Source: a virus
Virus record (IMG/VR): IMGVR_UViG_3300026078_000034
Location: 1 to 58,042 of that record
Strand: one strand, 5' to 3'
DNA length: 58,042 bases
In this document: one piece after another, positions 24,465 through 58,042 of the stretch
How the letters are laid out: every line of letters starts with the position of its first letter
Numbering within the stretch: the first letter of the stretch is position 1
Position numbers and translations under genes: made by a program
Notes under the pieces: generated by a model
Seen by the model: only the letters and a program-made list of their open reading frames with translations
What the model was told of the DNA's origin: nothing
Database searches by the model: none

Positions 24465-25118
24465 ATGTTGAAACGCGCTCGCAGCGCGGCAATTGCCGTG
24501 TCTGCTCTCATGCTGACCAGTGGCGTACTGTACGCGGCTGGCAACTATTCCGCATATCCCATCGTCGGCGGCGCATCGTTCTGCCTGTCCACGGTCGGCG
24601 TCAATGGCCAGGCTGGCAATACCGGGCAGGGCGGCGGCTCGGCAGGTTCTTCCGGTGCGTATTGCGCGCAAACTGTCCCGGCAGGCCCCTCTATCGTGAC
24701 CGGCAACGAACTTATCCCGGCTGATACCGGACTCGCTGGTGGCGCTTCTCCGCAGACTGTCGTGCTGACCTTGGCTTCGCTGAACGCGCTGCCGATTCCG
24801 GTTTCGACCGTCACCGGATCGACCTTCACCGTTGCAGCTAACCCGCTTGCCGGCGGGGCCTTCCTGCATCTCGGCTCCGGCCAAGGTGCTGTTATGACTG
24901 CGGTCACGGTTGACCTTCCGGCCGCCCCGATCGACGGCCAGCAGTTCCGCGTATCGGGCGATGCCAACGTGACGACCCTGACCATGACGGCCGTCAACTC
25001 GCCCGCCAACGTGACGATCAGCAATAACCCGACCACGATGACCACGACCACGACTGGCCCGTTTGGCTATGCATTCCGCTATAGTGCTGCGCTGAACGCT
25101 TGGGGGCGGCTCCAGTGA
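24465..25118 (+). CDS. Secreted beta-rich protein upstream of the terminase
   Basis: 217 residues with a textbook Sec signal peptide (MLKRARSAAIAVSALMLTSG, cleavage after 'LYAA'). The mature part is Gly/Thr/Val-rich with two early cysteines and ends in a beta-rich domain ('FRVSGDANVTTLTMTAVNSP', '..FGYAFRYSAALNAWGRLQ'). The C-terminal end resembles the closing strands of phage tail or decoration proteins. Export of a phage-encoded protein before the head genes is unexpected. Confidence 0.7.
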   Translation: MLKRARSAAIAVSALMLTSGVLYAAGNYSAYPIVGGASFCLSTVGVNGQAGNTGQGGGSAGSSGAYCAQTVPAGPSIVTGNELIPADTGLAGGASPQTVVLTLASLNALPIPVSTVTGSTFTVAANPLAGGAFLHLGSGQGAVMTAVTVDLPAAPIDGQQFRVSGDANVTTLTMTAVNSPANVTISNNPTTMTTTTTGPFGYAFRYSAALNAWGRLQ

Positions 25119-33349: not shown

Positions 33350-33376
33350 TGGGCATTTCTAGAAAGGACTAAAGCA

Positions 33377-33772
33377 ATGCCTATCGGAATTCTTCCCACC
33401 ACGGGTTTTCAGCCGGTTGATAACGACTGGCTGAACGGTATTGCGGGCGGCCATAACTTGATCTCCCAGAATGGCCTTACCGCAGTCGGCACCAATCAAG
33501 CGACCGCCCTTCAACTCGCGGATCGAATCGCCATGTTCTCGATTGATACTTCGTCTGCCAGCACTGGAGTCGCTTTGCCGGCCGCCCTTGCCGGCGTGAC
33601 CATCTTTATTGCAAACAACACGGCGAATAACATTTCCGCATTCCCGTCGATTACGAATAACCCGGTGACCAGCGCTCAAGATACGATCAATAACACGACC
33701 AGCGCGACCATCAACGCCCACACCGGCACAGCATTCACCTGCGCCAAGAATGGCACCTGGTACACCAACTAA
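33377..33772 (+). CDS. Virion-module beta protein, paralogue of 33974-34399
   Basis: 131 residues; good AAGGA before the start. 'GTNQATALQLADRIAMFSID', 'GVALPAALAGVTIFIANNTA' and 'NISAFPS' match the end of the protein at 33974 in the same order. Both look like a single beta-sandwich or fibre-knob domain. Likely a minor head or tail protein. Confidence 0.65.
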   Translation: MPIGILPTTGFQPVDNDWLNGIAGGHNLISQNGLTAVGTNQATALQLADRIAMFSIDTSSASTGVALPAALAGVTIFIANNTANNISAFPSITNNPVTSAQDTINNTTSATINAHTGTAFTCAKNGTWYTN

Positions 33773-33972: not shown

Positions 33973-33973
33973 C

Positions 33974-36324: not shown

Positions 36325-36325
36325 C

Positions 36326-37590: not shown

Positions 37591-38798
37591 TGGGGGACGT
37601 AGCAAGCCCTAACGCGCTCTATCCAGCGGCTCCAGCGCAGCCTCAGAGCGCCACAAATCTGCTTGCCAATCCGGCGCAGGCAGTTGGTATCCTTAGCGGT
37701 CTGCAGGACTATCGTCTCAAGCAACAGCAATTCAACGCACTATCGCAACAGCCGGATGCTGCTTTACAAGGCCAGCAGCTCTCAAACCAAGGTCAGACGA
37801 TTTCGAATGCAACGGCAGAGATGGCACAACAGGAAGCCGCGTCCAAGGCTGTGTCCCGCATTATGGGCGGTTATCTCGCTGGCATTCCTAATCCCGGACC
37901 CGATGACGTAAGAAGCGCCGCCGCGTTTGCGGCTCGGTCGCTGCCAAATGTTGCAATCAAGTATCCGGACATCATTTCGGCGGCATCGGAGACGGGCCGT
38001 AAAAATCCTGGTCTATTGATTAACTCGAATCTATCGCCCGGCGAACAGTCCGGAGAAGTCACAGGTACACCAACTCCTGGTGGTGCCCCGACTGTCCTTA
38101 AGGTACCGGCGTCGAACATGGGCTTGGGGCGGCCGACTGGCCTCTCACCCGCCGCAGCGGCTACCAACCTCGGTTCCGGCGAGGCATATAAATCAGCCAG
38201 TGAAACGGCTGGGAATTACGGAGCGCGCGTCAACCCGCTTCGTCAGGCCATCCCGATTCTAGAGAATATGAAAGAGACGGATATCGGCCCGATCTCCGAC
38301 AAGTGGAACGATATCAAGTCAACCGCTGTCAATCTCGGTGCCGGTACGCTCTTGGGTATTGACCCGGAGAAGATCAAGAACGTCAACGAGCTTAAGAAAT
38401 ACTTCAATCAATATTCGGTTCAGGCCGGTGCGGCGCTCGGTCCTCACACCAACGATGGATTGGCTGCGGCCGTTACGTCTAACCCGAATATCCATATGGA
38501 TAGGTTGTCGGCACTCGATCTTTCCAAGGTGGCTCTTGGCGTTGAGCGCATGAAACAGGCCGCCGTTCTTGAATTCCAGTCAAGGGTCGAGCAGGGCAAG
38601 GAAGACCCATCCAACTTCAATAATTTCATGGTCAAATGGGGTACGCAGCAGGACCCGCGCGCCTTCGTTTACGATCTGATGAGCAAGGATCAGCAGGAGA
38701 AGATCAAGAAGGGGCTGCCTCAGGCTGAACTTAACAAAATCCGAAATGGGATGAATATCGCTGATCGCCATGGTCTGCTGGGGGATGTTCATCAGTGA
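37587..38798 (+). CDS. Ejection protein, P22 gp20/gp16-position (403 residues)
   Basis: Largely helical and Gln/Ala-rich: 'AVGILSGLQDYRLKQQQFNA' near the start, and a C-terminal domain with 'LKKYFNQYSVQAGAALGPHT' and 'LSALDLSKVALGVERMKQAA'. The composition and position fit the second DNA-injection protein of P22-like phages. Overlaps its neighbours by four bases. Confidence 0.7.
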   Translation: MMGDVASPNALYPAAPAQPQSATNLLANPAQAVGILSGLQDYRLKQQQFNALSQQPDAALQGQQLSNQGQTISNATAEMAQQEAASKAVSRIMGGYLAGIPNPGPDDVRSAAAFAARSLPNVAIKYPDIISAASETGRKNPGLLINSNLSPGEQSGEVTGTPTPGGAPTVLKVPASNMGLGRPTGLSPAAAATNLGSGEAYKSASETAGNYGARVNPLRQAIPILENMKETDIGPISDKWNDIKSTAVNLGAGTLLGIDPEKIKNVNELKKYFNQYSVQAGAALGPHTNDGLAAAVTSNPNIHMDRLSALDLSKVALGVERMKQAAVLEFQSRVEQGKEDPSNFNNFMVKWGTQQDPRAFVYDLMSKDQQEKIKKGLPQAELNKIRNGMNIADRHGLLGDVHQ

Positions 38799-40588
38799 GC
38801 GATGATATTCTGGATCGGTATTCGAGAGGGAATACTCCATCCCCGAACGCCGAAGGATCGTTTACGCCTACCGATATCTTCAACAAATATGATCGGACGG
38901 ATACTGTTCCTATAGCGGCTGCGCCAACGACACCATCCTGGCAGGACGCGGAAGCTCTTGAGCAACTAGCGGCCCAAGGCGTCAATATGACGCCACCAGT
39001 CCCAAAAAAGCCGGGCAGGGGCATCGTGCAGGCTCTTCTGGATTATCCGGGCCATATATTAAACGGGCTTATCAATACGGTCGAGGCTCCCGGAAATGTA
39101 TTGGCATCCAAGGTGCCATCCACGAGCGAGAGCTTGATTCCCGACGCCGTGAATCTTGCCGGCATAACTAAACTCGGCGAGATAGGCGGGACTAGGGCCA
39201 TTGAACCTCTAAAGCCGTCTAACCAGGCAGTTAATAAGCTGGTCGCGACAATTGAGCCCAAGAACATTCCAGATGTCGTCAACCGCCTGAAGTCCGACCC
39301 AACCATGACGCTTGCCGACGTATCGCCGACCGTGCGCCAGTTGGCGCAGGGACTGGCGGCCGATGCGGGTCAGCCAAAGGCCATGAATGCGATTACTCAA
39401 GCGGTGGAAGCACGTAAGGCAAGTAGAGCGTCGGATGTTGAAAGCGCATACACGAAAGCCATGGGGCCATCCCCGGATGTCCCGGCCATGGTTGAGAATC
39501 TGAAGGCAAATGCTCGCAAGATCGGCCAGGAAGAAATCCAGCCAGTATTGGATAATGCGCGCCTTGTAGATACATCTCCCGTCATTAAAGCGATTGATGA
39601 TAAACTGCAGCCCGGCGTAAATCCGCTTTTGAGCAAGGGATCAGAACTCCCCCTCTCTGCGGAGCAGGAGGCGCTTGCTCGTATTAAGTCGCAGCTTCTG
39701 ACGGCCGGCGGCGAACAATTATTTGATGCCAATCGACTACATCGTATTCAGAGCGATGTCGGCAATCAAATCTATCAGCTTTCCAAGAGTCCAGACCCCA
39801 AGGACCGATTGCTAAGTTCTCAGCTTCGTCCAATGAACGAAAAACTTATTGATCAGATTGATGAGGCGACTGGCGGCGCGTATAGACCGGCACGGCAAAA
39901 ATATGCGGATGCTAATCGCATTCAGGATGCCTTCGAAAGTGGTTTTGATACGTTGAAAAACCGCTCGGGAATTGAGGGTGCGCTTTCGGACAGCCCTGAA
40001 GCATTCCGGAATTGGATGAAGACGGCGACCCCAGAAGAGGTCGCGGCAAGACGATTGGGCACTCGCGCCGATATTGATCAAAAAATCAACAGCGTGAGAA
40101 ACAGCGCACTCAGGGGTGAGACTGTCACCCAAATTCCTTTTAACCAGGAAAAGCTGAAAATGCTTTTCGGTGAGAGCGAGGCCAATCGCCTCATCACCGC
40201 AATGCAGAATTCCAGTGATAAGGCTCTTACCAATGCTGCACTAACGGGCGGCTCTCATACCGCTCGTATTGAGGGGGGCAAGGCGGCACTCGCCATACCC
40301 CCAGTCGGAGGCGGCAATCCTCTGCAGTGGTTTGCCCCTGTGGCTGGCGAAATGTTGGGAAGCAGCTATGGCGTACCTGGTGTCGGTGCCGTTCTCACTG
40401 CAGCGAAGGGGCTTCACGTCGGAGCCCAAATGCTCAACAAGCAAAATGCTCTGGCTCGTAATGCTGAATTCGCAAGAGCATCGATGGCTACAGGTTTCGA
40501 TCGCTCACAATTAATCAATAAGCTTATGGGGCACCCTAAAGTGGTTCGCGAGCTTAAGAAAAGCTCGAACGCGCTTACTTCGCCTTAA
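38795..40588 (+). CDS. Ejection protein (597 residues), terminal gene of the injection block
   Basis: GTG start overlapping the previous stop. Mostly long helices; the middle has 'LQPGVNPLLSKGSELPLSAE' and 'HRIQSDVGNQIYQLSKSPDP', and a hydrophobic Gly/Ala-rich segment near the C-terminus ('GGNPLQWFAPVAGEMLGSSY', 'GVPGVGAVLTAAKGLHVGAQ') could insert in membrane. This size and design match P22 gp16, needed for DNA passage across the envelope. No transglycosylase motif seen. Confidence 0.75.
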   Translation: MSDDILDRYSRGNTPSPNAEGSFTPTDIFNKYDRTDTVPIAAAPTTPSWQDAEALEQLAAQGVNMTPPVPKKPGRGIVQALLDYPGHILNGLINTVEAPGNVLASKVPSTSESLIPDAVNLAGITKLGEIGGTRAIEPLKPSNQAVNKLVATIEPKNIPDVVNRLKSDPTMTLADVSPTVRQLAQGLAADAGQPKAMNAITQAVEARKASRASDVESAYTKAMGPSPDVPAMVENLKANARKIGQEEIQPVLDNARLVDTSPVIKAIDDKLQPGVNPLLSKGSELPLSAEQEALARIKSQLLTAGGEQLFDANRLHRIQSDVGNQIYQLSKSPDPKDRLLSSQLRPMNEKLIDQIDEATGGAYRPARQKYADANRIQDAFESGFDTLKNRSGIEGALSDSPEAFRNWMKTATPEEVAARRLGTRADIDQKINSVRNSALRGETVTQIPFNQEKLKMLFGESEANRLITAMQNSSDKALTNAALTGGSHTARIEGGKAALAIPPVGGGNPLQWFAPVAGEMLGSSYGVPGVGAVLTAAKGLHVGAQMLNKQNALARNAEFARASMATGFDRSQLINKLMGHPKVVRELKKSSNALTSP

Positions 40589-40765: not shown

Positions 40766-42634
40766 ATGAAATTAAAAACCGCCATCGCCGCGATCTTTGC
40801 GGCTGCCTTGTCATGCTCGCAAGCCTTCGGGCAGGCCACGATTCTACCTCCGGGTGAAACGTGTTTCCAGAGCACGACTGGTATCAACGGTATGGTTGGA
40901 GTGCTGGGCACCATTACGGGCGGCTCGCTCTATACCAATGGCAGCTACGGCGGCGTGGCTCTGACGGGTGGATCTGGGACCGGCGCAACCGCCAATATAA
41001 CGGTTTCCGGTGGCGTTGTCACAGGGGTAGCAGTCCTCAATCCGGGCATAAATTACGTCGTGGGAGACGTTTTAAGCGCCTCTGCGGCCACTATTGGTGG
41101 TACTGGAAGCGGTTTTTCGGTCCCGATCAATTCGATCTCGATCAATTCTTCGCTGGCTGGTGGAACGGTCGGTTTCTACATCCCGGCAACCCAAACTCCA
41201 AAGCAAACCTGGCAGAATGCCGGAGAGACGGTCCTCAATACCAATCCGGTAAATCTGGACGCGAATGGCTGCGCGATCATTTATGGCGCCGGCATCTACC
41301 GGATGATCGTCAAGGATTCTCTGGGCAATACGGTCTACGATCAGCTAACCGCCTCAACCTCTCCCGCCGGAATCTTCTGGGCCGGCACGGCCGGCGGTAC
41401 TGGCAATGCCATTACAGTTACGGATTCCAGCTTCGCGCTTCAAGACGGCGCGACGATTCAATTCAGGGCATTAGCTGCCAACACTGGGCCGACGACGATT
41501 GCGGTTTCCGGCGGTTCGCCAATCGCCATCGTGAACGATACCTCGACCGGGCCAGCAGCCTTGAGCGGTGGAGAAATCGGCCCCGGCAATACGCCGATGA
41601 TAACCTACGATGCGACGGCGGCTGAATTTCATCTGGTCAATCCAGCCGCGACTTCCGGCACGACCGCTTCATCTTCGTTGCTTCCCCCGCAGGGCTATCT
41701 CAATCTCGTTGGTCAAGCGACTGGCGATGTGATCCAGACCGGCGATGTCAGCGGCACCTCGACTGTCTTTTATTCTCCTTATGTTGGAAATCAAATCCCG
41801 ATCTGGAATGGCTCGATCTTCAAGAGCGTAACCTTCTCGGAATTGACGGCTACGCTAACTGCTGCGGGCAGTGTCGCAAGCACCATTCAGGATGAATGTG
41901 TTTTCTCGAACAACGGCGTTCCTACGCTGGTCACGGGGCCGTCGTGGAGCAATGTTGCGGCGGGGAGTGGAAGTCGTGGCACAGGGGCTGGCAGCGCGCA
42001 ACTTACGCGCCTTCAGGGTATCTGGGTCAACGCAGTTTCGATTGTTGGATATAACGGGCTATCCTCATTCACGGTTCCGGCCAATCAGTGCACCTATGTA
42101 GGATCGATATCTGTTGATGGCACTCCGGGGCAGGTTTCGGCATTACGAAGCTATGGGCAATCTCGCAAATGGGGAGTCTGGAACGCTTACAACAGGCAAC
42201 AGATTTTCATGCAGGCTGGCGATTCTACCGCCTCGTGGACCTATGGCACCAATACGATACGCCCCTCCCATAATGCCACCGGAAATTCGATAGCTACTTT
42301 CGTTGGACTGCCTGAAGAAGCAATCCTAGTTCGGTTCAATCAGTTTGTTCAAGGATCGACCTCCGGAGCCAGCGCATCAACCACATGGATAACTGGCATC
42401 GGATGGAATTCCATCACATCATTTTCTGGCACGGTTACAAATGGAGGCGTTGTCGCAGGTTCTAGCTCTAATGCCATCAACATAGAGCTTACCGGACCCG
42501 CCACATATCTCAATCCGCCAGGCATCGGGATAAATGTCGCTACGTCTCTGGAGACGACACTCACTTCATCCGCAACTCCGACTTATGCCGGCACCGTTGG
42601 CAATATGATCCTGTCGGCGAGTTATCGCGGCTGA
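40766..42634 (+). CDS. Tail-fibre-like protein with a Sec signal peptide
   Basis: 622 residues. The N-terminus MKLKTAIAAIFAAALSCSQA with cleavage near 'AFGQA' is a clear signal peptide. The body is Gly/Thr/Ser-rich beta structure; 'GYLNLVGQATGDVIQTGDVS' followed by 'VFYSPYVGNQIPIWNG' is common in phage tail fibres, and a C-terminal domain follows from about residue 440. It sits in the tailspike position of P22, after the ejection genes. A signal peptide on such a protein is unusual. Confidence 0.75.
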   Translation: MKLKTAIAAIFAAALSCSQAFGQATILPPGETCFQSTTGINGMVGVLGTITGGSLYTNGSYGGVALTGGSGTGATANITVSGGVVTGVAVLNPGINYVVGDVLSASAATIGGTGSGFSVPINSISINSSLAGGTVGFYIPATQTPKQTWQNAGETVLNTNPVNLDANGCAIIYGAGIYRMIVKDSLGNTVYDQLTASTSPAGIFWAGTAGGTGNAITVTDSSFALQDGATIQFRALAANTGPTTIAVSGGSPIAIVNDTSTGPAALSGGEIGPGNTPMITYDATAAEFHLVNPAATSGTTASSSLLPPQGYLNLVGQATGDVIQTGDVSGTSTVFYSPYVGNQIPIWNGSIFKSVTFSELTATLTAAGSVASTIQDECVFSNNGVPTLVTGPSWSNVAAGSGSRGTGAGSAQLTRLQGIWVNAVSIVGYNGLSSFTVPANQCTYVGSISVDGTPGQVSALRSYGQSRKWGVWNAYNRQQIFMQAGDSTASWTYGTNTIRPSHNATGNSIATFVGLPEEAILVRFNQFVQGSTSGASASTTWITGIGWNSITSFSGTVTNGGVVAGSSSNAINIELTGPATYLNPPGIGINVATSLETTLTSSATPTYAGTVGNMILSASYRG

Positions 42635-42652
42635 TCTTCCAAGGAAATATTC

Positions 42653-43306
42653 ATGACGAACATCGCTCAGGCAGCGAGCGCTGCACCTGTGCCGCTAAGG
42701 TCTTCGCAAGCCGCGATCGATTTGATTGTCTGCAGCGAAGTATCGTCAGAAGCGGCTTACACAAAACTCTATCAGCACCCGACTTGGCCCGGAGGCATGT
42801 CCGGTGTGACAATCGGAATAGGGTACGACTGCGGATACTCGACATCAGATCAAATCGATGAAGACTGGGCCGACAAGCTTCCTCTCGAAATGGTCGAGGC
42901 TTTACAGGAAGTCGCGGGCATCCATGGCTCTGCCGCTCAATCTCATGCCCATGAACTGATCGGTAAAGTGACCGTTCCATGGGATGCAGCGATGGCCGTG
43001 TTCGAGGGCCGCGACATGCCGAAATGGGAGGGTATCGTTGCAAGGTCGCTTCCGAACACGGACAAACTAAAGCCGGACAGCTTCGGCGCGCTCGTAAGCC
43101 TTTCCTATAATCGCGGGCCGTCATTTTCAACGCCCGGTGATCGCTATGCTGAAATGCGCGCGATCCATCAGCATATGGCCGGATGCACGTTCAATCTGAT
43201 CCCGAATGACCTCCGTTCGATGGCGCGGCTCTGGCCCAATGCACTCGGGTTGAGAATTAGACGCGACAAGGAGGCCGATCTGTTCGCCAAGGGGTTGGCG
43301 GCATGA
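42653..43306 (+). CDS. Endolysin, pesticin/T4-lysozyme-like muramidase
   Basis: 217 residues. 'AIDLIVCSEVSSEAAYTKLY' supplies the likely catalytic Glu, 'GVTIGIGYDCGYSTSDQIDE' is the conserved TIGIGYD active-site strand, and 'FGALVSLSYNRGPSFS' matches the lysozyme helix after it. This is the arrangement in the pesticin/T4-lysozyme branch. No signal peptide, so a holin is needed; candidates follow. Overlaps the lipase gene by four bases. Confidence 0.8.
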   Translation: MTNIAQAASAAPVPLRSSQAAIDLIVCSEVSSEAAYTKLYQHPTWPGGMSGVTIGIGYDCGYSTSDQIDEDWADKLPLEMVEALQEVAGIHGSAAQSHAHELIGKVTVPWDAAMAVFEGRDMPKWEGIVARSLPNTDKLKPDSFGALVSLSYNRGPSFSTPGDRYAEMRAIHQHMAGCTFNLIPNDLRSMARLWPNALGLRIRRDKEADLFAKGLAA

Positions 43307-43986
43307 TCTCCGATGCTCTCTGCGCCTCGCTCTGTCAGGATATCTATAGTCCAACAGCATTGATCGGTGAATGGGATCACTTCGATCTAGGTGCTGATGA
43401 TGGTGTTTGCTGGGCACTTAAGAAGATAGACGGCTACGATATCGTTGTGTTTCGCGGCTCGATCACGGCGCAGGACTGGTTGCGCGATGTCTATGTACTT
43501 CCATTCGGACAAGTATCGCCGCTGAAAACTCGCATCGGCCACGTCCACGCCGGATTCTTTCTCGGCATGGAGCATATGTGGGGCGAACTGCTGCCGATGC
43601 TGGGCAATCCCGTGATCGTTACGGGTCATTCGCTGGGAGCAGCGAGAGCCGCAATCCTGACCGCGCTAATGGTTACTGATGGGCATCCCCCGCAAGCTCG
43701 CGTGGTATTCGGAGAGCCTAAGCCCGGTCTTATCGATCTGGCCGATCTCATCAAGGACATTCCGGCGCGCTCATACCGCAACGGCGATGCCACGTATCAT
43801 GACGTGGTGACCGATGTCCCCATGACCCTGCCGCCGCAACAGTTTGTCCATCCAACGCCAATCGTTCCGGTTTGTGCAGAGCCAACCGGCGATCTGTTCT
43901 CGCGCCTCGGCGCATTTGCGTATCACCATATACAGCTTTACGTCGCCGCAGTGTCGGCGCTTACCCCGAAGGAGACTGCAGCGTGA
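43303..43986 (+). CDS. Class 3 lipase in the lysis cassette
   Basis: 227 residues with an alpha/beta-hydrolase core: 'YDIVVFRGSITAQDWLRDV' (oxyanion strand), nucleophile elbow GHSLGA (Ser about 110), acid in 'YHDVVTDVP' (Asp about 167), and catalytic His in 'YHHIQLYV' (about 208). This is the lipase-3 family of triacylglycerol and phospholipid hydrolases. It lies directly between the muramidase and the holin-like genes, suggesting attack on membrane lipids at lysis. No signal peptide. Confidence 0.88.
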   Translation: MISDALCASLCQDIYSPTALIGEWDHFDLGADDGVCWALKKIDGYDIVVFRGSITAQDWLRDVYVLPFGQVSPLKTRIGHVHAGFFLGMEHMWGELLPMLGNPVIVTGHSLGAARAAILTALMVTDGHPPQARVVFGEPKPGLIDLADLIKDIPARSYRNGDATYHDVVTDVPMTLPPQQFVHPTPIVPVCAEPTGDLFSRLGAFAYHHIQLYVAAVSALTPKETAA

Positions 43987-44774
43987 AAGGCATCGATCCG
44001 AAATACATCATGTGGCTTGGTTTCATTATTTATTTGGAAAAAGGCATCGGGCAGGGTGCCATTTCACTAACCAATATGATTCCAGCGTCTTGGATTCCGG
44101 TTGTCTTGGCGTGGTGCAATGGGTTGGCTTGGGGTGGAGTTGGTCTGATGACAACTCTGGCGGCGTTCTCTTCTAATGCCACGGGTCCATTTATAAGCCC
44201 CCCATCTTCTTCGGCGAATGTCATTCCCATCAAGACAGATACGATTGTCAAAATCCTCCTGATTGCCTTTCTGCCTCTCGCTTTGCTGGCAAGCGGCGAA
44301 GCGCGCGCTCAAATCAGGCTTAAGCCGCTGCCGGACCCGCTCGCCAAGATAAAGCAGGATTTCCAGACCACGACCGGCGTGAAGGCCACCGGCGACGTTC
44401 CGTTCGATCTGCTGAAGGCTTTGGACAAGGCGTTGCTGCCAGACCTGCAATATGCCCAGAAGCTCGCTCTTGCTACCGGATCGAAAGTCACCGCGCCATG
44501 TTACCAGGCGTGGATCGACATGATCAATACTCAGCAGACCGCGGTGCAAACCAAGAACGCTGACGGCACCACGACCGACATTGTAGCGCCCGATCCGCAT
44601 CTGGTGACCGACTTCGAACGAATGGTCGAACTCCGCAATGCGCTTCAGCCAGACTCGCCGTTCATGACCGCGTGTTCCCCCGTTGCCAACATGGTCAAGA
44701 TGGACGTGACGAACTTCATGGGCATCGTGATCTCGGGCGGCGCCGGACTGGCTACGCTGGTCCCGGGTCTCTGA
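43983..44774 (+). CDS. Holin-like domain fused to a secreted domain
   Basis: 263 residues, GTG start overlapping the lipase stop. Residues about 1-70 ('YIMWLGFIIYLEKGIGQGAI', 'IPVVLAWCNGLAWGGVGLMT') resemble a small phage holin-like membrane protein that normally stands alone. Then 'TIVKILLIAFLPLALLASGE' followed by 'ARAQI' looks like a complete signal peptide with its own cleavage site, and a 150-residue soluble domain with paired cysteines follows. There is no start codon at the join, so it is a true fusion in this sequence. The soluble part would face the periplasm. Confidence 0.65.
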   Translation: MKGIDPKYIMWLGFIIYLEKGIGQGAISLTNMIPASWIPVVLAWCNGLAWGGVGLMTTLAAFSSNATGPFISPPSSSANVIPIKTDTIVKILLIAFLPLALLASGEARAQIRLKPLPDPLAKIKQDFQTTTGVKATGDVPFDLLKALDKALLPDLQYAQKLALATGSKVTAPCYQAWIDMINTQQTAVQTKNADGTTTDIVAPDPHLVTDFERMVELRNALQPDSPFMTACSPVANMVKMDVTNFMGIVISGGAGLATLVPGL

Positions 44775-44779
44775 ATAAC

Positions 44780-44968
44780 ATGAGTCACCCAACGGAAATT
44801 CTAACCAATTCCATTGCAGCTGCTTCGTTGGCAAGCCCGCTATGGCTACCGTCACTTCAGGATGCATCCGAATTCGCAGCTCTGGTTCTGCCGATCCTCG
44901 GCGCGCTCTGGCTGATCCTGCAGATAGCTTTGAAAATTCATGCATTCAGGAAAGGTAAAAATAACTAG
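44780..44968 (+). CDS. Small membrane protein, second holin candidate
   Basis: 62 residues with one clear membrane helix 'AALVLPILGALWLILQIALK' and a basic C-terminus 'HAFRKGKNN', preceded by a hydrophobic N-terminal stretch. Five bases after the fusion gene. Size and charge distribution are those of a class II/III holin or antiholin. Confidence 0.65.
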   Translation: MSHPTEILTNSIAAASLASPLWLPSLQDASEFAALVLPILGALWLILQIALKIHAFRKGKNN

Positions 44969-45000
44969 CCGACCGATTTCAATGAACCCCTAGAGGCATT

Positions 45001-45426
45001 ATGAGCAGGATAAACTGGCCGCTTACCGTGGCCGTTGTCGTCATGGCTTTGCTTATTGCGTTTTTGTATTCGGTTAGTTTTAAAGTGCAAGCTCGCGATC
45101 TCGGCCAGTGGGAAAACCAGGATCATGCCGTAACCGAATGGTATCGAAGCCTGATGCAGCCGGATATTCCAGAGGCCTCATGCTGTGGCGAGGCAGATGC
45201 ATATTTCTGCGATGAAATTCATGTCAGGGACGAAAAGACGTTCTGCACCATCACTGATGACCGACCGGATGAGCCGCGAGGCCGTCCGCATATAGACATT
45301 GGAACGCAGATCGAGATTCCGCCGAATAAACTGAAGTGGGATAGGGCCAATCCAACCGGACATTATATCGTATTCCTAAGTCGGGCTGGGTATGTGTTTT
45401 GCTTTGTGCAGGCTGGGGGCGCCTGA
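45001..45426 (+). CDS. Membrane-anchored periplasmic Cys-rich protein
   Basis: 141 residues. One N-terminal membrane anchor (LTVAVVVMALLIAFLYSVSF) then a soluble domain with 'EASCCGEADAYFCDEIHVRD', a pattern I have seen in alphaproteobacterial proteins of unknown role. AGAGGC precedes the ATG. The position suggests a spanin-like or lysis-associated job, but no spanin signature is present. Confidence 0.65.
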   Translation: MSRINWPLTVAVVVMALLIAFLYSVSFKVQARDLGQWENQDHAVTEWYRSLMQPDIPEASCCGEADAYFCDEIHVRDEKTFCTITDDRPDEPRGRPHIDIGTQIEIPPNKLKWDRANPTGHYIVFLSRAGYVFCFVQAGGA

Positions 45427-45427
45427 A

Positions 45428-46732
45428 ATGGTCTGGTCCCCGCCGCCGACCGACGAACAATGCCGCGAGGCATATGCAGCCACCCAGACATTTCAAACCA
45501 TGTCGGAGGCCGCAAGGTCAATCGGACATACGGTTACTTGCCTGAAATGGCGCATTAAACTCTACCATGAGCGTGGCTTGGATGGACAGGCACCGCAAGC
45601 ATCGGCGCAACCGATCGACTCTATTGAGCGATATCGCCTTGATTCGGAAATAACCCGGCTCAAGGGCATTTGTAGAAACCTTACCGAGCGCTTGACGGCC
45701 GCCGAGGATCACCGCTCTTCAATTCTTGGGCTAGATATTGCGCCGGCAGAACCGATCGCAAAACCAAGGCTCAATACAAAGGGCGCGAAGCACTCAAATC
45801 AAGCCGTTGTCCTGCATCTTTCCGACCTTCATGTTGGCGAAGTCGTCAATCGTGAAGAAGTCATGGGGGTTAACGAATATAATCTTGGGATAGCTGAAAA
45901 GCGAATTGGCCGGCTGTTCGGCGCGGCGTCAGTATTGACCACATCGGCATGGCCGGCCTCCGATGCTGCTCCGGTTAAAATTTGCATTCTGCTTGGCGGC
46001 GATCTGATTTCTGGTCATGGCCTGCACCCAGAACACGCTGAAACAGACGCTGGAACGGCCTATCAGCAAACCAAATGGGCTGCGGAATATATCTCAGCTG
46101 GCGTTCTTCGGTTGCATCTCGATCTTAAGGAGCGCTTTGGCAAAGCCGTTCCAATTGAACTGATATCGGTTGTCGGCAATCACGGGCGAGATACGTTCGG
46201 GAAGCCTCGCACCAAGCTTGTCAGCATCCAGAGTTATGACACCCTGGTATCGGACTTTATCGAGGCGGCACTTAAGCAATACAAGACGATCACGCATTAT
46301 CGGCCCCGAGGGTTCGATGCTTACTTTGATGCGGTTGGCTGGCCGCTTCTCCTGACCCACGGTGATAGGATGGGATCGGGTGGAGGAACGGGATTCATTG
46401 GTCCTGCGGCGACCATTATCAAGGGGCACCGCAAAATACTTGATACAGAACATCGCCAGCGCCGGCCGGTTTACAAGGTTTTCTCGGGTCACTTCCACAC
46501 TTCTTGTGTCACACCGTTCGGTTTTGGAAACGGATCTGGCGTAGGCTACGGAGAATTTGCCAAGAGCTTGCGGGCCGATCCCGAACCCGCGCAACAGAAC
46601 ATGGTCGTGTTCCATGAACGGCTAGGCGTTCTGCGCTGGCATCCCATCGCCATGGGCGATGCGGATGAGGGATCAATCTATCAGCCGACCGCTGGCGTGA
46701 TTCTGCCGAATATGTATGAGGCGCGCGCGTGA
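45428..46732 (+). CDS. Metallophosphoesterase with N-terminal helix-turn-helix-like region
   Basis: 434 residues from the ATG just after the previous stop. The calcineurin-like motifs are all visible in order: 'LHLSDLHVGE' (about 129-138), 'LLGGDLISGH', 'VVGNHGR', 'LLTHGDRMG' and 'KVFSGHFHT'. The first 55 residues ('FQTMSEAARSIGHTVTCLKW') look like a small DNA-binding helix-turn-helix, and a coiled-coil joins it to the enzyme. Could act on nucleic acid or nucleotides; substrate unknown. Confidence 0.85.
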   Translation: MVWSPPPTDEQCREAYAATQTFQTMSEAARSIGHTVTCLKWRIKLYHERGLDGQAPQASAQPIDSIERYRLDSEITRLKGICRNLTERLTAAEDHRSSILGLDIAPAEPIAKPRLNTKGAKHSNQAVVLHLSDLHVGEVVNREEVMGVNEYNLGIAEKRIGRLFGAASVLTTSAWPASDAAPVKICILLGGDLISGHGLHPEHAETDAGTAYQQTKWAAEYISAGVLRLHLDLKERFGKAVPIELISVVGNHGRDTFGKPRTKLVSIQSYDTLVSDFIEAALKQYKTITHYRPRGFDAYFDAVGWPLLLTHGDRMGSGGGTGFIGPAATIIKGHRKILDTEHRQRRPVYKVFSGHFHTSCVTPFGFGNGSGVGYGEFAKSLRADPEPAQQNMVVFHERLGVLRWHPIAMGDADEGSIYQPTAGVILPNMYEARA

Positions 46733-46953
46733 CCAAGGGCTATCAGCAAATCAGCGAAAATGAATGGATTGAACCAAGGCGCAAGGGATACATCGATCAG
46801 TGCTGCCATTGCGGGTTGACCCACATTATTGATTTCGATGTCGTGGATAAAGACAAGAAACCAATCCCCGGCGCGACCATTCAGATGAAGTTAAGAATTG
46901 ACAAGAGGAAAACCGCGGCCTCTCGCCGCAAATTGAAATTCGAGAAAGATTGA
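46729..46953 (+). CDS. 74-residue hypothetical protein with CxxC
   Basis: GTG start overlapping the previous stop. 'QISENEWIEPRRKGYIDQCC' then 'HCGLTHIIDFDVVD' contains a CCHC-like cluster and a basic tail. Common small phage protein; unknown function. Confidence 0.6.
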   Translation: MTKGYQQISENEWIEPRRKGYIDQCCHCGLTHIIDFDVVDKDKKPIPGATIQMKLRIDKRKTAASRRKLKFEKD

Positions 46954-47390
46954 TGCCTTACCGTATCGACGAGGTTGACGGTAGCAACCCTGAAATCTCG
47001 GAGATCATTCACCACTTCAATGCGCTCGCGCCTGAAATATTCCCGGCCCTCGAACCAAAGCACCTGGAATGCGGCTACTGGTGGTTAGCATATCTTGAGC
47101 AGGAGCCAGTAGCGTTTGCTGGCCTCGTAACGTTTGAGCCGTGCACTGAAACAGCGTATCTCAAGCGCTGCTATGTTCTGCCGGATCATATTGGCCACGG
47201 TTTGCAACTAAGACTGATGACAGCCAGAGAACTGAAAGCCCGTGAACTCGGGTATACGCGTGTCGTCGCGGAATGTGCCGAGCATTCGCATTCCAACCTG
47301 AATTTCCGTCGCGCCGGATTTGAGATCATTACGCCAGAACAGGCGTGGGGCGCTCCTAATTCGGTCTATTGGCGGAAATTGTTGATCTAA
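46953..47390 (+). CDS. GNAT-family acetyltransferase
   Basis: 145 residues. 'EPVAFAGLVTFEPCTETAYL' and 'KRCYVLPDHIGHGLQLRLMT' fit GNAT motif A (here HIGHGLQ in the acetyl-CoA loop), followed by 'ARELKARELGYTRVVAECAE' and 'SNLNFRRAGFEIIT', a typical C-terminal motif. Target unknown. Second GNAT in this genome, unlike the one at 35857 in having a good cofactor loop. Confidence 0.8.
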   Translation: MPYRIDEVDGSNPEISEIIHHFNALAPEIFPALEPKHLECGYWWLAYLEQEPVAFAGLVTFEPCTETAYLKRCYVLPDHIGHGLQLRLMTARELKARELGYTRVVAECAEHSHSNLNFRRAGFEIITPEQAWGAPNSVYWRKLLI

Positions 47391-47469
47391 AACCCCTTAA
47401 AATATAGGCGAATCCGAACTTTCGTGCTAGGTTATCACCATCTGATTTGCACTCGCGAACAGGAAAAAC

Positions 47470-47838
47470 ATGAAGATTTATCTTGCTGGTCCCATGACCG
47501 GAATTCCGAATTTTAACTTCCCAAAATTCAATGCTGTTGCGTCTCATCTTCGCGAACAGGGCCACGAGGTTTTTAATCCGGCAGAGCGTGATATTCAGCG
47601 CCACAACGGCGTTGATATCTCCGCTGGCAATGTTTCTGGCGACCCGACCTTAGCAGCCAAGGTCCACGGATTTTCGCTTCGAGATGCGCTGGCGGACGAT
47701 ACTGCCTATATCTGCAAAGAGGCGGATACGATTGCCATGCTGCCGGGTTGGGAGAATTCGAAGGGCGCTAGGGCCGAGCATGCTCTAGCCTTCGCGCTGG
47801 GGCACCAAATCATTTATTTCGGGAATGCCGATGCCTGA
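47470..47838 (+). CDS. DUF4406 (nucleoside 2-deoxyribosyltransferase-like) protein
   Basis: 122 residues. 'MKIYLAGPMTGIPNFNFPKF' and 'AVASHLREQGHEVFNPAERD' are the DUF4406 hallmark; 'ADTIAMLPGWENSKGARAEH' and 'ALAFALGHQIIYF' complete the fold. These proteins resemble nucleoside deoxyribosyltransferases and are common in phages. AGGA precedes the ATG. It lies immediately before a nucleotide-hydrolase-like gene. Confidence 0.88.
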   Translation: MKIYLAGPMTGIPNFNFPKFNAVASHLREQGHEVFNPAERDIQRHNGVDISAGNVSGDPTLAAKVHGFSLRDALADDTAYICKEADTIAMLPGWENSKGARAEHALAFALGHQIIYFGNADA

Positions 47839-48313
47839 AGCCGTGAAGTTGGAACCTCGCCCGGACGGAACGACGCCAATCATTAAGAAGCCAACCAATC
47901 CGAAGGACGCCTTCGGTATTAAGAAAGCGTCCCTGTCCTGCGTTTCATCTCCGGTTCTAATGGAACTGGGCGTAGCGATGCAGGAGGGGGCTTGTAAGTA
48001 TGGCCGTCACAATTATCGCGTGATTGGTGTTCGCGGCTCAGTTTATTACGATGCGACTTTTCGCCATCTGATGGCATGGTGGGAGGGCGAGGATATCGAC
48101 CCTGATAGCGGTCTATCCCACGTCACCAAAGCAATAGCTTCGTTGGTTGTGCTGCGTGACGCAATGATTCAAAACAAGTTCAATGATGATCGTCCGCCAA
48201 AATCTAAGTCATGGCTTCCCACGCTGAATGGTCAATCCGAAAATCTTTTCAAGAAATATCCGGACCCGGTAAATCCGTACACCGAAGCCGACAATTCTTG
48301 GATCGAAAAATAG
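47831..48313 (+). CDS. DUF5664 / dATP-dGTP diphosphohydrolase-like protein
   Basis: 160 residues. 'KKPTNPKDAFGIKKASLSCV' then 'PVLMELGVAMQEGACKYGRH', 'NYRVIGVRGSVYYDATFRHL' and 'MAWWEGEDIDPDSGLSHVTK' are the signature of DUF5664 phage proteins, linked to dATP/dGTP diphosphohydrolases in phages with altered purines. I start at ATG 47831 because GGGA lies six bases upstream. No PurZ gene was found, so base substitution in this phage is not supported. Overlaps DUF4406. Confidence 0.82.
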   Translation: MPEAVKLEPRPDGTTPIIKKPTNPKDAFGIKKASLSCVSSPVLMELGVAMQEGACKYGRHNYRVIGVRGSVYYDATFRHLMAWWEGEDIDPDSGLSHVTKAIASLVVLRDAMIQNKFNDDRPPKSKSWLPTLNGQSENLFKKYPDPVNPYTEADNSWIEK

Positions 48314-48364
48314 CCTAATCCCGTCGCGAACCGGGCATCGTTCGCAACCTCCCGAAAACTTGAG

Positions 48365-48399
48365 CCCGGTGGCCTGACGGTTCATCGGGTTTCTTTTTA
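48365..48399 (+). terminator. Rho-independent terminator before the last tail block
   Basis: Stem CCCGGTG / CATCGGG (48365-48371 and 48383-48389, one G-T pair) is followed by TTTCTTTTTA. It separates the nucleotide-metabolism genes from the secreted tail-like proteins at 48428-53309. Confidence 0.75.
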
Positions 48400-48427
48400 T
48401 CCAAACATCACCCTGGAGAAAACACCG

Positions 48428-49579
48428 ATGCGCAAAATTCTTGCGACGGCTTGCTTTGCGCTATTGGTATCGTTCTTTAGCGCCCCCGTTTACGCTCAAT
48501 CTCAATCCCCAGTCGTCCTTCCTGGCGGGTGTGGCACGGCCAGTTTCATCAGCAATTCCGGCTATCCAACGGAGGATTCGACCGGCAAGCTTTGCGTCAA
48601 TGCGACGGTTAGCGCGTCGATCAGCCCGTTCACTCCCGGTGCATCTGGCGCGCGGGGTACTCAGCTTTCGGTTACGACAGCAGACAGCAGCGGTAGCCTT
48701 CCGACCAATGGCGGGGCAGTCGTCGTCACGAATACCGGTTCAAACCCCATCTATTGCAACGTAAACGGTAATGCTGCCACGACTTCAGATCAGGAGGTCA
48801 CGGCGAGCGGCGGCTGGTTTAACTTCGGCATTCCATCTGGCGTGACCACGCTGCATTGTATCGCGACGGGGGGCTCAAGCACGGCTAATTCGCTTGGTGG
48901 CTCCGGCTTGGCAACGGGCACGGGCGGCGGCGGGGGCGGTGGAGGCGGCGGCACTGTAGCGCAGGGTACGGGTGGCGCATCGGCATGGCTCGTCACGGGT
49001 ACGGGCGGCACATTCCCGGTTACCGGCACCTTTTGGCAGGCGACGCAGCCCGTCAGTGTTGCATCAGGAGCGGTGGCCAGCGGCGCGTATGCTCCGGGAG
49101 CGTTTCAGGCTGGCGCTGGCGCGGACGGCTGGGATACAGCCGAGGGCACCACGACCAGCACGGCTTGCCCAGTTTCCGGTACGGCAACCGTAGTGGGTTG
49201 CTTGCGGTCGGCAGTCAATAATCCGGTGACCCTCGGGAGCGCATCAGGTGGCATCTCCACCAAAACCCTAGCCGCCCTGACAAATACCGCCATCGCGGTC
49301 AAAGCTGCGGCCGGACAGGTTTACTCGGCCCAGTGCAGCAATTCGGATGCCACCCACTGGGCTTATATCCAGATTTTCAACGTGGCCGCCGCCTCGGTCA
49401 CGATGGGCACGACGGCACCGACAAAGTTTGTCGGCATTCCTCCAGCCTCCAATGCCGGCTTCACCTTCTCGCTGGTCGGCGATCAATATTCGACCGCCAT
49501 CAGCGCTGGCGCTGCGAGCACGTCCACAGGCGGCACGGCGCCGACCACGGCCATTGATTGCACGGTGGACTTCCTCTGA
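48428..49579 (+). CDS. Secreted tail-like protein with a glycine linker
   Basis: 383 residues. Signal peptide MRKILATACFALLVSFFSAP with cleavage at 'VYAQ'. Two beta domains are joined by a run of about ten glycines near residue 165; the first ('GGAVVVTNTGSNPIYCNVNG', 'WFNFGIPSGVTTLHCIATGG') and last ('AAAGQVYSAQCSNSDATHWA', 'YIQIFNVAAASVTMGTTAP') resemble modules common in phage tail and head-fibre proteins. Overlaps the next gene's ATG by one base. Confidence 0.7.
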   Translation: MRKILATACFALLVSFFSAPVYAQSQSPVVLPGGCGTASFISNSGYPTEDSTGKLCVNATVSASISPFTPGASGARGTQLSVTTADSSGSLPTNGGAVVVTNTGSNPIYCNVNGNAATTSDQEVTASGGWFNFGIPSGVTTLHCIATGGSSTANSLGGSGLATGTGGGGGGGGGGTVAQGTGGASAWLVTGTGGTFPVTGTFWQATQPVSVASGAVASGAYAPGAFQAGAGADGWDTAEGTTTSTACPVSGTATVVGCLRSAVNNPVTLGSASGGISTKTLAALTNTAIAVKAAAGQVYSAQCSNSDATHWAYIQIFNVAAASVTMGTTAPTKFVGIPPASNAGFTFSLVGDQYSTAISAGAASTSTGGTAPTTAIDCTVDFL

Positions 49580-50334
49580 TGCGTGGCTATCTCACGATAG
49601 CGCTGGCGGGCTTGCTGGCGGTCGCTGGACCGTCTGCGGCTCAGATGACGCTGACGGGCGCGGGCGGAACGCAATTTAAGTCGAGCGGCACCGCATTCTC
49701 GCTCACCTATCAATCCTCAAACGGTGTAAACTCTGGTGCATCCACCACAGTTGACTACGGAACGCTCAGCTATGGTTCCGGCAATACCAGAGTTATCGTT
49801 CTGGCAACGTGGGGCCAAGCCTCCGGGGAAACCATATCGGGGGTGACCATCGGCGGCGTTGCGCTCACTCAAATATCAGGTGCGTTTTCTACTGTCGGGG
49901 GCAGCGGGGTGATTGGGGCTTCTGATATATGGATGTCAACAGCGCCGCTGGCGGGAACTTCCGGCGACGTGCGGATAACTTACTCGGCAACGCCTGGTTC
50001 TGGAATTACGGGCGTAGCGCTTTACAATTTACAAACGACGACACCGACCCCCGCGCATGTGGCGAATACAACAGCCTTTAACTCCCCCACGGCTTCCACA
50101 GCTATAACTGTTCCGAGCGGAGGCGCTGCAATCGCGATTACTGCGACTTGGGGATTCGCCGCTAGTTCAGTATCATTTACGGCCGGAGCCACACAGGACG
50201 CAAATTTCCCCCTGCCCATCTTTTCCAATCCTGTCCTGGTAGGTCACACCACGTCAACTGGATCGGTAACGGTAACTGCAACGTACAACGCCAATGCTGG
50301 CGCGCCGATGTCCTTAGTGTCGTGGGGGCCGTAG
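49579..50334 (+). CDS. Secreted beta-sandwich protein
   Basis: 251 residues. Signal peptide MRGYLTIALAGLLAVAGPSA with cleavage at 'SAAQ'. The mature part is a repetitive Gly/Thr/Val beta protein ('TISGVTIGGVALTQISGAFS', 'VTATYNANAGAPMSLVSWGP') like receptor-binding or adhesin knobs. One-base overlap with the preceding gene and shared TAGTG junction with the next. Function unknown. Confidence 0.7.
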   Translation: MRGYLTIALAGLLAVAGPSAAQMTLTGAGGTQFKSSGTAFSLTYQSSNGVNSGASTTVDYGTLSYGSGNTRVIVLATWGQASGETISGVTIGGVALTQISGAFSTVGGSGVIGASDIWMSTAPLAGTSGDVRITYSATPGSGITGVALYNLQTTTPTPAHVANTTAFNSPTASTAITVPSGGAAIAITATWGFAASSVSFTAGATQDANFPLPIFSNPVLVGHTTSTGSVTVTATYNANAGAPMSLVSWGP

Positions 50335-53309
50335 TGCTGTGGGCACGAAGGCTCATATGTGGGGCGCTGGTCGCCTTTACCGCACTTCCGGCGTCTGCCG
50401 GGCTTAGGATTCACGGCTCGGGGTCTACCGCCCCTATAGGAGGTTCGCAAGCTAACATAGAGGATTTACTTCAAGCCTCCGACCTGATCGACGTGTTCAA
50501 CGTCGCGACGGTAACGCCCACGGTTCCGTCTGATGCAGGCCTGATGGATGCAGACGGCTATTTCAACGGCACGCTCGCCGGAAATGTCGGCATCTCCTTT
50601 CCCAACAGCGGCTTCTGGACAAATACTCAGTACGAGCTTCGCTTTCCCGCCGGCTTTCAGGGAACGCTGCACTTCAACGCCAACGCGACGAGTTGCACCG
50701 CCAATGTCAATGTCACGGTCAGCGGCTGCACGGGATCAGGTCCGACCGATTTCTCACCGACCACCAACGCCGGGGGCTCGGTCCAGTTCACGACAAATTC
50801 GACGCAACTGAGCGCGTTTTGGTTGGGTGGCGTCACCTACGCTCACACGGCTGGAACTAAGCTTTCGCTCTACCGCGTGAGCGACAAGACGGCGTATCAA
50901 GCCGGCGCGATCTGGACACCGGAATTGATTGCGCGGAAGATAGATTTCCACGCCAAGACCAACCGCGAAATGCAGATCATGCAGTTCGGGGCGAGCGGCT
51001 TCAACGGCGAGACAAACTGGAAATACCGGACGTCGCCGACGAGTTTCGGGTGGCAGAGCAACCACTATCCGCCAAGCCTGTGGTCGGGAGGTTCAGGCAC
51101 CAGCGGCGCGATCACCGGTACGAATCAGTACACCGCAGCCGCAGCAACCGACACGCCGCTTTCCGGCTGGGTCAACGGTGAGCAGATCATCGGCGCGGTA
51201 GCCAACGCGAGCGCCGGTCAGATCGCCGTGAGCGGCGCGGTTAACAACGGTTCCGGGCTTTGCCGGTTGACGGCGAGCACCACGAACATAACGACTGGAC
51301 AGGCGGTCAACGTCATCAACCTGTTTAATTCCGATGGGACCGTAAAAACGGGATGCAACGGCGTCTTCAATGCGACAGTCATCAATTCGACCACGCTCGA
51401 TCTTCAGGCATCCACCTTCAACGGCACAGGCTATCTTGCCAATTCCGGATTCGTGGGCATCCAAACCCTGACGATCACGGGAAAAACCGGCGGCGCAAAG
51501 TTTATCGTCGATGTGACGGGCCTTCCTCGCAATGCGCTGTTCCTAAGCACCGTCGTCGGTGCCGGCCTCGGAACCTTTACCTATGACGATGTACTTGATG
51601 TCGTAAAGTACAATCAGAACGGGATCGGTTCGTCGGCCGCGCCAATCGAGGCCGTAATAAATCTATCGAACTCGACCAACGCCAACATCTGGGCGAACGT
51701 GCCGCCATGGGCGACCGACGATTACGTTAACAATTGGGGAGCGAATATCTGCTCCGGGCTTAATCCGTGGCTGTTTTTCTATCAGGAATATTCCAACGAA
51801 CTGTGGAATCCCGGTTTTCCGCAGTGGCAATGGGCGCTCCGGCGCGGTCTAGCCTTTGGCTGGGTGGCGAGTGGAGGACAAGCAAACGAGGGCTGGGTGG
51901 GCCTTCGGTTTCGTCAGATCGCCGGCAATCTGATCCCGGCGATACCCTCCTGTGCGGCCCGCATGTCAACAATCCGGCGTGTGCTTGCCTATCAAGGCGG
52001 CGGTGATCCGACACAGGTTACGAACCTGTTCGGTGGCGCGCAGCTCAACACGACGACCGGCAACGCGCTCTACTGCACCTATACAGGCGGAACGTGGTCG
52101 GGATCGTCTTGCTCTGGGGGATCCAACTATTCGGTCAAACCGAACCGTCCGATCGATGTCGCGGAGTCAGAAGCACCCGCGCCTTACGTCGGTGGTGTGA
52201 ATCTTTGCACCGGACCCGATGTTGGCTGCACGCTTGATACGACCAATGCGCCGTTCTACCAAGCGCTGGCGAACGCGTGGGAAGCCGGCAACACGGCCGC
52301 CGCGATTGCCCTAGTCGATAATGATTTCCGGCAGGCTACCACGCTCAACCAGACCGTGACCGCAGCAGGTTCGACGTTCACCACGCCGAGCGCGCACGGG
52401 TTTTCCTCGGGACAGTTCGGGACCTACGTTCTGTTCACCACGACCGGGACACTGCCGACCGGCCTTGCACTCAACACGCTCTACAATGTCACCAGTACGC
52501 CGACGTCTAACACTTTCACGGTACGCGGCCTCGTCAACGGATTCCCGGCAGGTTCGAACATCACCGTCAGTGGTGGCAGCGGCACCATGTCGGTCGGTTC
52601 GTCCAGCCAGCGCAACCTGATGTGGATGGCGAACGCCTGGTATCCATTCTTTGAAAATAATGCGGCCGCGTTCGACGGCGACCGTCCCGCCGGGATGGCA
52701 AATGTCCGGGTCGAATGGTACGAGGGCAACATCGAGCTTCAAGGGCCTGCTACACCTTCCGTCTGCACGACGATGGGCGTCACGTCGCCCAACCCCGCAA
52801 TCGTCAACTTTACTGGCACGACCTCCGGCAATAACGGGATCACGGGAATATCAAGCCTGTCGAACCTGCATGTCGGCATGGTGCTGTCCGGTGCGGCCGA
52901 TATTCCGGCCGGGACGTATATCACCGGCATTGGTGTGGGAGCCTTCGCCAATCTGGACCCGACCGCGATCACGATCAGCGCTAATGCGACGGGCTCGAAC
53001 ACGGAGTCGATCACCGCGACCGGCAACTGCGCGTCGGATGCGGCACAGGCGATCATCGCGTGGAAGAACGACAATATGTCGGAACTTTCTCAGATAGCCT
53101 ATTACAAGCAGTTTTTTGGCACCGACGCATCGCAGCCGGTGACATTCGGTCTGATGCCTCACGCGCGAACGCCGGCGCAACTGGTAATGTTCGGGGAGTG
53201 CAACGGCTCTGGCGGGAGTTATTCCATGATGCCTGGTTGTCTGGCGAACTCGACGCCTTATGTGCCGTATTACAGCGGGTTTTCAACCTTCAACAGCGGG
53301 TTCAATTAG
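50334..53309 (+). CDS. Large secreted glycosidase-like tail or surface protein (991 residues)
   Basis: GTG start after the previous TAG; signal peptide 'RRLICGALVAFTALPASAG'. A beta N-terminal domain leads into a region that looks like a TIM-barrel glycosidase: 'IDFHAKTNREMQIMQFGASG', 'NIWANVPPWATDDYVNNWG' and 'FFYQEYSNELWNPGFPQWQW', where the 'EYSNELWN' motif holds a probable catalytic acid. Two immunoglobulin-like inserts (about 240-390 and 680-760) interrupt it. Probably degrades or binds host surface polysaccharide; a role as adhesin in the lysogen is equally possible because it is exported. Confidence 0.7.
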   Translation: MLWARRLICGALVAFTALPASAGLRIHGSGSTAPIGGSQANIEDLLQASDLIDVFNVATVTPTVPSDAGLMDADGYFNGTLAGNVGISFPNSGFWTNTQYELRFPAGFQGTLHFNANATSCTANVNVTVSGCTGSGPTDFSPTTNAGGSVQFTTNSTQLSAFWLGGVTYAHTAGTKLSLYRVSDKTAYQAGAIWTPELIARKIDFHAKTNREMQIMQFGASGFNGETNWKYRTSPTSFGWQSNHYPPSLWSGGSGTSGAITGTNQYTAAAATDTPLSGWVNGEQIIGAVANASAGQIAVSGAVNNGSGLCRLTASTTNITTGQAVNVINLFNSDGTVKTGCNGVFNATVINSTTLDLQASTFNGTGYLANSGFVGIQTLTITGKTGGAKFIVDVTGLPRNALFLSTVVGAGLGTFTYDDVLDVVKYNQNGIGSSAAPIEAVINLSNSTNANIWANVPPWATDDYVNNWGANICSGLNPWLFFYQEYSNELWNPGFPQWQWALRRGLAFGWVASGGQANEGWVGLRFRQIAGNLIPAIPSCAARMSTIRRVLAYQGGGDPTQVTNLFGGAQLNTTTGNALYCTYTGGTWSGSSCSGGSNYSVKPNRPIDVAESEAPAPYVGGVNLCTGPDVGCTLDTTNAPFYQALANAWEAGNTAAAIALVDNDFRQATTLNQTVTAAGSTFTTPSAHGFSSGQFGTYVLFTTTGTLPTGLALNTLYNVTSTPTSNTFTVRGLVNGFPAGSNITVSGGSGTMSVGSSSQRNLMWMANAWYPFFENNAAAFDGDRPAGMANVRVEWYEGNIELQGPATPSVCTTMGVTSPNPAIVNFTGTTSGNNGITGISSLSNLHVGMVLSGAADIPAGTYITGIGVGAFANLDPTAITISANATGSNTESITATGNCASDAAQAIIAWKNDNMSELSQIAYYKQFFGTDASQPVTFGLMPHARTPAQLVMFGECNGSGGSYSMMPGCLANSTPYVPYYSGFSTFNSGFN

Positions 53310-57826: not shown

Positions 57827-58042
57827 CTATTGCGGCTTGTCGGCCTTCGCCGCGAGTTCGGTCAGTTCCGCCATCTGCCGCTGAATGCTCTTGGCGAGGT
57901 GGCCGCGCTGTTCCTTACTGGCGGCCGTCCGCATGTTCTCAATCTGCTCGACCAGGTTGGAACAGCGATGCCCGGCCGGCGTGTCGGCGCCCAGCTTTGA
58001 GCGCAGCGCGATCAGCTTGCGGCGGGTGTCTTCGTGGTCGAA
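57827..58042 (-). CDS. Junction-spanning 73-residue protein, C-terminal part
   Basis: With the six bases 151-156 this forms a 73-residue frame ending 'MAELTELAAKADKPQ'. It is short, charged and helical, and is the first gene of the leftward operon leading to 53.3 kb. The intact frame across the closure is good evidence that the molecule is circular. Confidence 0.75.
   Translation of the reverse strand, partial: FDHEDTRRKLIALRSKLGADTPAGHRCSNLVEQIENMRTAASKEQRGHLAKSIQRQMAELTELAAKADKPQ
57917..58042. repeat. 126-bp direct repeat, right copy (circular closure overlap)
   Basis: Identical to 25-150. Joining base 58042 to base 151 restores one uninterrupted reading frame on the - strand and gives a circle of about 57.9 kb. 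Confidence 0.9.

Follow-up and report, generated by a model that had tools for sequence, protein, structure and literature searches.

Assembly of tailed phages is taught as an entirely cytoplasmic process. In the tailspikes of Pam1 and of P22-like podoviruses (PDB 7eeq; 9vyg/9vyh), a head-binding or docking domain stands at the very N-terminus and no signal peptide precedes it; the C-terminus binds the receptor, and the gene follows the needle-head and ejection genes. A receptor-binding protein made as a Sec pre-protein is known from filamentous phage M13, namely G3p, or pIII (PMC8310372). Lom of phage lambda has a signal peptide and is encoded near the tail fibre genes (PMC12309495), and secreted endolysins (Lys44 of fOg44) as well as SAR endolysins are Sec-exported in advance and await lysis (PMC6116005). 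In the part of the literature on signal peptides and tail fibres that our search covered, Sec export of tail spikes is not described for any tailed phage.

Here we describe a soil phage that, like many of its relatives, seems to export tail spikes by ordinary secretion signals. The window, that is, the whole stretch of 58,042 nucleotides analysed, is the genome of a podovirus with P22-like portal, scaffold, coat, connector, Hc3/needle-head and ejection proteins. Its ends are joined by a direct repeat of 126 bases (25-150 = 57917-58042; unit 57,892 bases), and the genome therefore appears complete. A near-perfect 51-base hairpin ahead of the repeat (1-51) looks like an assembly fold-back. Because a tyrosine integrase is encoded at 336-1364, the phage is probably temperate. 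Hc3 (34400) is followed by the ejection genes (36326-40588) and these by gene 40766, a position shared with the tailspike genes of Pam1 and P22-like phages; the same gene order is seen in loci L329-L334. The ejection proteins lack cysteine altogether, unlike most other structural proteins. The features under study are collected in Table 1.

Table 1. Signal-peptide genes of the window and related features (positions in the window).
Feature	Coordinates	Strand	Basis
Exported tailspike or fibre (putative), 622 aa: signal peptide, docking domain, receptor-binding C-terminus	40766..42634	+	Profile, homologue and structure comparison
Predicted signal peptide of 40766; predicted mature start QATILPPGETCF	40766..40831	+	Rule-based score, alignments
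Tailspike head-binding (docking) domain of 40766	40832..41365	+	Profile matches
C-terminal receptor-binding half of 40766, common to cytosolic phage fibres	41651..42634	+	Homologues, Foldseek
Fibre-like protein, 217 aa, signal peptide, 2 mature Cys; just upstream of terminase	24465..25118	+	Score 7.4
Predicted signal peptide of 24465, cleavage at about LYA/AGN	24465..24536	+	Scorer, homologues
Fibre-like protein, 383 aa, signal peptide, 8 mature Cys	48428..49579	+	Score 8.6
Beta-rich protein, 251 aa, signal peptide, no mature Cys	49579..50334	+	Score 8.1
991-aa protein, signal peptide, 14 mature Cys	50334..53309	+	Score 9.2
Protein with signal peptide or N-terminal anchor, RDLGQWENQD...CCGEAD	45001..45426	+	Score at least 5.5, conservation
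Small protein between connector and Hc3 genes, no signal peptide in window copy	33377..33772	+	Homologue comparison

A sequence-only reading of the window had claimed that 24465, 40766, 48428, 49579 and 50334 start with canonical Sec signal peptides, and had proposed signal-peptide prediction on all five. Frames and coordinates proved right. The N-termini of 40766, 48428, 49579, 50334 and 24465 are, in this order, MKLKTAIAAIFAAALSCSQAFGQA, MRKILATACFALLVSFFSAPVYA, MRGYLTIALAGLLAVAGPSAAQ, MLWARRLICGALVAFTALPASA and MLKRARSAAIAVSALMLTSGVLYA, and the predicted signals have the features of Sec/SPase I substrates: a positive n-region, a hydrophobic h-region and small residues at -3 and -1. On a home-made rule-based scorer of n-, h- and c-regions, all five pass with scores of 7.4-9.2, while 12 signal peptides of E. 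coli score 5.6-10.4. These values lie far above the null, as pseudo-starts at internal methionines (n = 1379) reach at least 5.5 in 1.1% of cases and at least 7 in 0.2%. Among the 86 called genes, scores of 5.5 or more were given by 24465, 40766, 45001, 48428 and 49579, to which 50334 was added once its GTG start was used. The earlier reading had overlooked 45001, whose signal-like N-terminus is kept in relatives; its homologues are conserved near the fibres of other signal-peptide phages. From the terminase through the last ejection protein (25316-40588), no gene scores as a signal peptide by these rules, and no fibre-like gene without a signal peptide was recognised in the window genome.

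Wrong start codons or contamination might also create such N-termini. The ATG of 49579 lies inside TGATG, which couples its start to the stop of 48428, and the GTG of 50334 overlaps the TAG of the preceding gene, so that stops and starts overlap successively along these three genes; for 50334 the gene caller picked a later start. An artefact of this kind is nonetheless already contradicted by conservation, and we give it practically no weight: signal peptides hold their position across many independent contigs as well as bacterial genomes, homologues of all five proteins start with them wherever a related N-terminus is available, and a start codon is often absent from the mature part at the boundary.

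The docking region of 40766 matches the "tailspike head-binding domain" of cyanophage Pam1 (PDB 7eeq) with E values of 6e-6 (domain profile) and 4e-12 (family profile), and its profiles also match other solved tail spikes, including PDB 9vyg. A repeat-like insertion splits the domain at about residues 41-128, and a cysteine pair is located at PPGETCF and LDANGCA. The tip resembles TNF/C1q-like lectins, with phage fibres as structural neighbours in a Foldseek search of the PDB; that search is informative for the tip alone, and AlphaFold modelled the docking part poorly as a monomer. Relatives of 40766 are encoded in 30 viral loci. Full-length relatives have the signal peptide immediately before A-x-T-x-LPPGExCF, while those that match the C-terminal half alone mostly have different, cytosolic N-termini. 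In isolate PAE2, the docking domain begins at residue 1 with no signal peptide (MTQLLPNGKQHF...DGRGEAAIYG); the counterpart in one signal-peptide locus (L011) reads AQLLPNGKQCF...DGNGCAIIYG directly after its signal peptide. Prophage versions match PHROG tail families, and in bacterial genomes the docking gene has ejection genes on one side and cytosolic Pam5-like tail proteins on the other. Pam5_19 of the isolated phage Pam5 (L121, 12903-13370), which adjoins the tail spike gene, has a signal peptide.

Bradyrhizobium sp. dw_78 was considered as a named cultured host of the window phage and rejected, since the relatives found there are exclusively cytosolic. A prophage of this strain (L119, 9941-12752) has two tandem relatives of 40766, neither with a signal peptide.

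If the signal peptides are used, the mature proteins would fold in an oxidising compartment, and the distribution of cysteine residues in the mature part, the signal itself being left aside, indicates that they do. Among 91 distinct docking domains of the 40766 subfamily, 22 of the 28 with a signal peptide have a cysteine pair and the 63 others have none. A sister subfamily of 86 sequences, drawn from Bradyrhizobium-family genomes and viral contigs, has a pair at two other positions in 12/17 signal-peptide forms versus 0/69 others, one of which has a single cysteine. The different positions point to independent origins of the pairs. The pair is missing in 6/28 and 5/17 signal-peptide forms, respectively, and is therefore not essential. 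An even number of mature cysteines was likewise found in 34/40 signal-peptide forms versus 57/126 others (p 8e-6), and, among long proteins of 14 loci, in 41/43 with a signal peptide versus 29/51 without (p 1e-5); both p-values are too small because the counts were taken over related sequences. The mature part of 40766 itself contains 4 cysteines.

The junction between signal and mature protein was also informative. In most members of the sister subfamily, cleavage is predicted between A and AGT, where cytosolic forms begin M-AGT, so that processing is predicted to restore the N-terminus of the cytosolic forms. One may conceive that the signal-like segments are not used for export at all, that the fibres assemble in the cytoplasm and that the hydrophobic segment serves in structure or folding. 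We find this very improbable: cysteine pairs occur solely with the signal peptide and even cysteine numbers prevail there, the solved docking domain was matched without such a segment, and the cleavage register yields the cytosolic N-terminus.

Signal peptides appear to have come and gone. On the best trees of the two docking subfamilies, 5 and 8 changes are found; both trees are poorly resolved, and the minimum required by well supported branches is 2 and 3, respectively. The window contains a gene of another kind, 33377, that offers a natural on/off comparison as judged from its homologues (L002, L004, L007-L010), most of which have a signal peptide immediately ahead of the shared region.

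Export of the spikes is thus well supported by these predictions. Where they go is a separate question, for which the sequence-only reading had offered two options: either particles acquire them outside the inner membrane, or they are secreted as proteins of the host surface. Because 40766 has a known docking domain and is the sole gene of this kind recognised in an apparently complete genome, the first option is favoured for this protein. Searches of 22 and 23 records, which covered relatives and prophages as well as the window genome, gave one docking gene per genome, always bearing a signal peptide; some of these records are fragments, and one (G687) has an extra weak match in a 69-aa frame. 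For 24465, 48428, 49579 and 50334, in which no docking domain was recognised, the second option is possible.

Extending that second option to the whole set, all these proteins might be exported yet never join a virion, acting as polysaccharide-binding or -cleaving proteins around the cell or sitting on the surface of the lysogen or dying cell, where they could block superinfection or keep progeny off debris. Genes 48428, 49579 and 50334, which lack a recognised docking domain, do come after the structural and lysis genes; Lom offers the precedent of an exported protein whose gene lies between those for tail spike and tail fibre (PMC12309495), and the second exported fibre of one relative contains a pectate-lyase-like domain (PF12708). 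We nevertheless deem this reading unlikely, if worth keeping in mind. Among signal-peptide forms the docking region is 72-81% identical, conserved like the receptor-binding core, while the signal peptide itself is 32-82% identical, and a free protein would have no evident need of such a domain. The particle would, moreover, be left without a recognised docked spike.

The remaining signal-peptide genes are less easily assigned. For four of the five proteins, no useful family came from Pfam or PHROGs, and none of the five matched an outer-membrane beta-barrel family there. Homologues with signal peptides were found for 24465 (L032-L038, L054) and 48428 (L003, L041, L043, L049). In one locus, L039, three genes stand in a row in the same order, each with a signal peptide; genes 2 and 3 are the homologues of 49579 and 50334, and the latter is 92% identical over residues 30-991 and has its own signal peptide. 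A YSNELWN motif in 50334 recalls clan-A glycoside hydrolases, for which the protein is a candidate only; its AlphaFold model (pLDDT 27) is unusable. Directly past this operon, on the opposite strand, lies a 2OG-Fe(II) oxygenase gene (PF13640; 53314-54111).

Downstream of 40766, a lysozyme-like gene and, directly 3' of it, a class 3 lipase (PF01764) occupy 42653-43986; the lipase is perhaps lysis-associated. A single ORF at 43983-44774 joins a holin-like part, a segment resembling a signal peptide (TIVKILLIAFLPLALLASGEARA, then Q) and a soluble domain, with no usual start codon between the first two; the sole homologue found matches the first part.

That several examples in one genome point to a system had also been suggested, and the relatives bear this out: besides the cysteine pairing, they show recurrent rows of 2-6 consecutive fibre-like genes, each with a signal peptide. 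A second type of fibre adaptor (KTxAQLN..FPDQ..ITP) was seen solely with signal peptides; when its non-exported members were sought, a first alignment was too diverse and a second gave signal-peptide forms alone. Weak matches to Kagunavirus/Jerseyvirus proteins (E near 0.01-0.07) were left unused. In Acetobacter phage phiAX1 (L123, 26418-29312), two signal-peptide proteins lie within the structural cassette, and the annotated start of the second, labelled glucanotransferase, is downstream of its signal peptide.

These rows bear on a mixed arrangement, in which 40766 docks as a virion spike after export while the 48428-50334 operon and 24465 are secreted as free proteins. The presence of a docking domain in 40766 alone and the different genome places of the other genes would fit such a division; signal peptides and even cysteine numbers are, on the other hand, common to all, and in relatives the exported fibre-like rows directly follow the docking gene. 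We hold the mixture to be quite unlikely.

The reading that we prefer, and consider fairly likely, is that export takes the spikes to the periplasm, where they are oxidised, and that they dock onto virions as the inner membrane opens at lysis. Its computed support consists of the signal peptides, the docking domain, the coupling of cysteines to signals, the even cysteine numbers, the single recognised docking gene and the recurrent switching; we infer export during infection, signal cleavage, oxidation and storage in the periplasm, the timing of these steps and attachment when lysis occurs. During infection, 40766 and most likely also the other fibre-like proteins would be made as Sec pre-proteins and cross the inner membrane, with removal of the signal peptide. 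The spikes would fold and form disulfides in the periplasm and be stored there, while DNA-filled heads with short tails are completed in the cytoplasm. Particles would encounter the stored spikes once holin and endolysin breach the inner membrane; the docking domain would attach them, and the infectious particle would be completed outside the inner membrane. Israel et al. (1967; reference 14 of PMC3741392) are said to have put P22 together in vitro from heads and tail parts, which makes late attachment of spikes plausible. As for the benefit of export, one may speculate on disulfide formation, on keeping polysaccharide-active proteins from the cytoplasm or on early action in the envelope.

With confidence a little better than even, we extend this proposal to widespread tailed phages of soil Alphaproteobacteria, whose spikes would be Sec-exported, stapled by disulfides and docked at lysis, with switching between cytosolic and exported forms by gain and loss of the signal. 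Exported tail spikes suggest that particle completion in a tailed phage can take place outside the inner membrane. If so, a periplasmic step is added to tailed-phage assembly, the Sec and disulfide machineries of the host become part of host range, and an explanation is at hand for how receptor-binding proteins that are cysteine-rich or active on envelope polysaccharides are made without acting inside the cell. Signal-peptide proteins are easily mistaken for non-structural in phage annotation, and the receptor-binding proteins of many soil phages may thus have been overlooked.

Comparison with known systems sets the limits of each analogy. Like M13 pIII, 40766 would be a phage receptor-binding protein made with a Sec signal; M13 is extruded through the membrane and its pIII has a C-terminal membrane anchor, whereas the window phage is a tailed podovirus and 40766 has no C-terminal hydrophobic anchor, ending in beta strands (...GNMILSASYRG). 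Lom, a product of the lysogen, is a beta-barrel of the outer membrane, while 40766 is a fibre with a docking domain. Lys44 and the SAR endolysins are lysis enzymes and not structural proteins. With the tailspikes of Pam1 and P22-like podoviruses, 40766 shares a homologous docking domain and a receptor-binding C-terminus. In those spikes the docking domain comes first; in the 40766 type a predicted signal peptide precedes it, and most signal-peptide forms have an extra cysteine pair.
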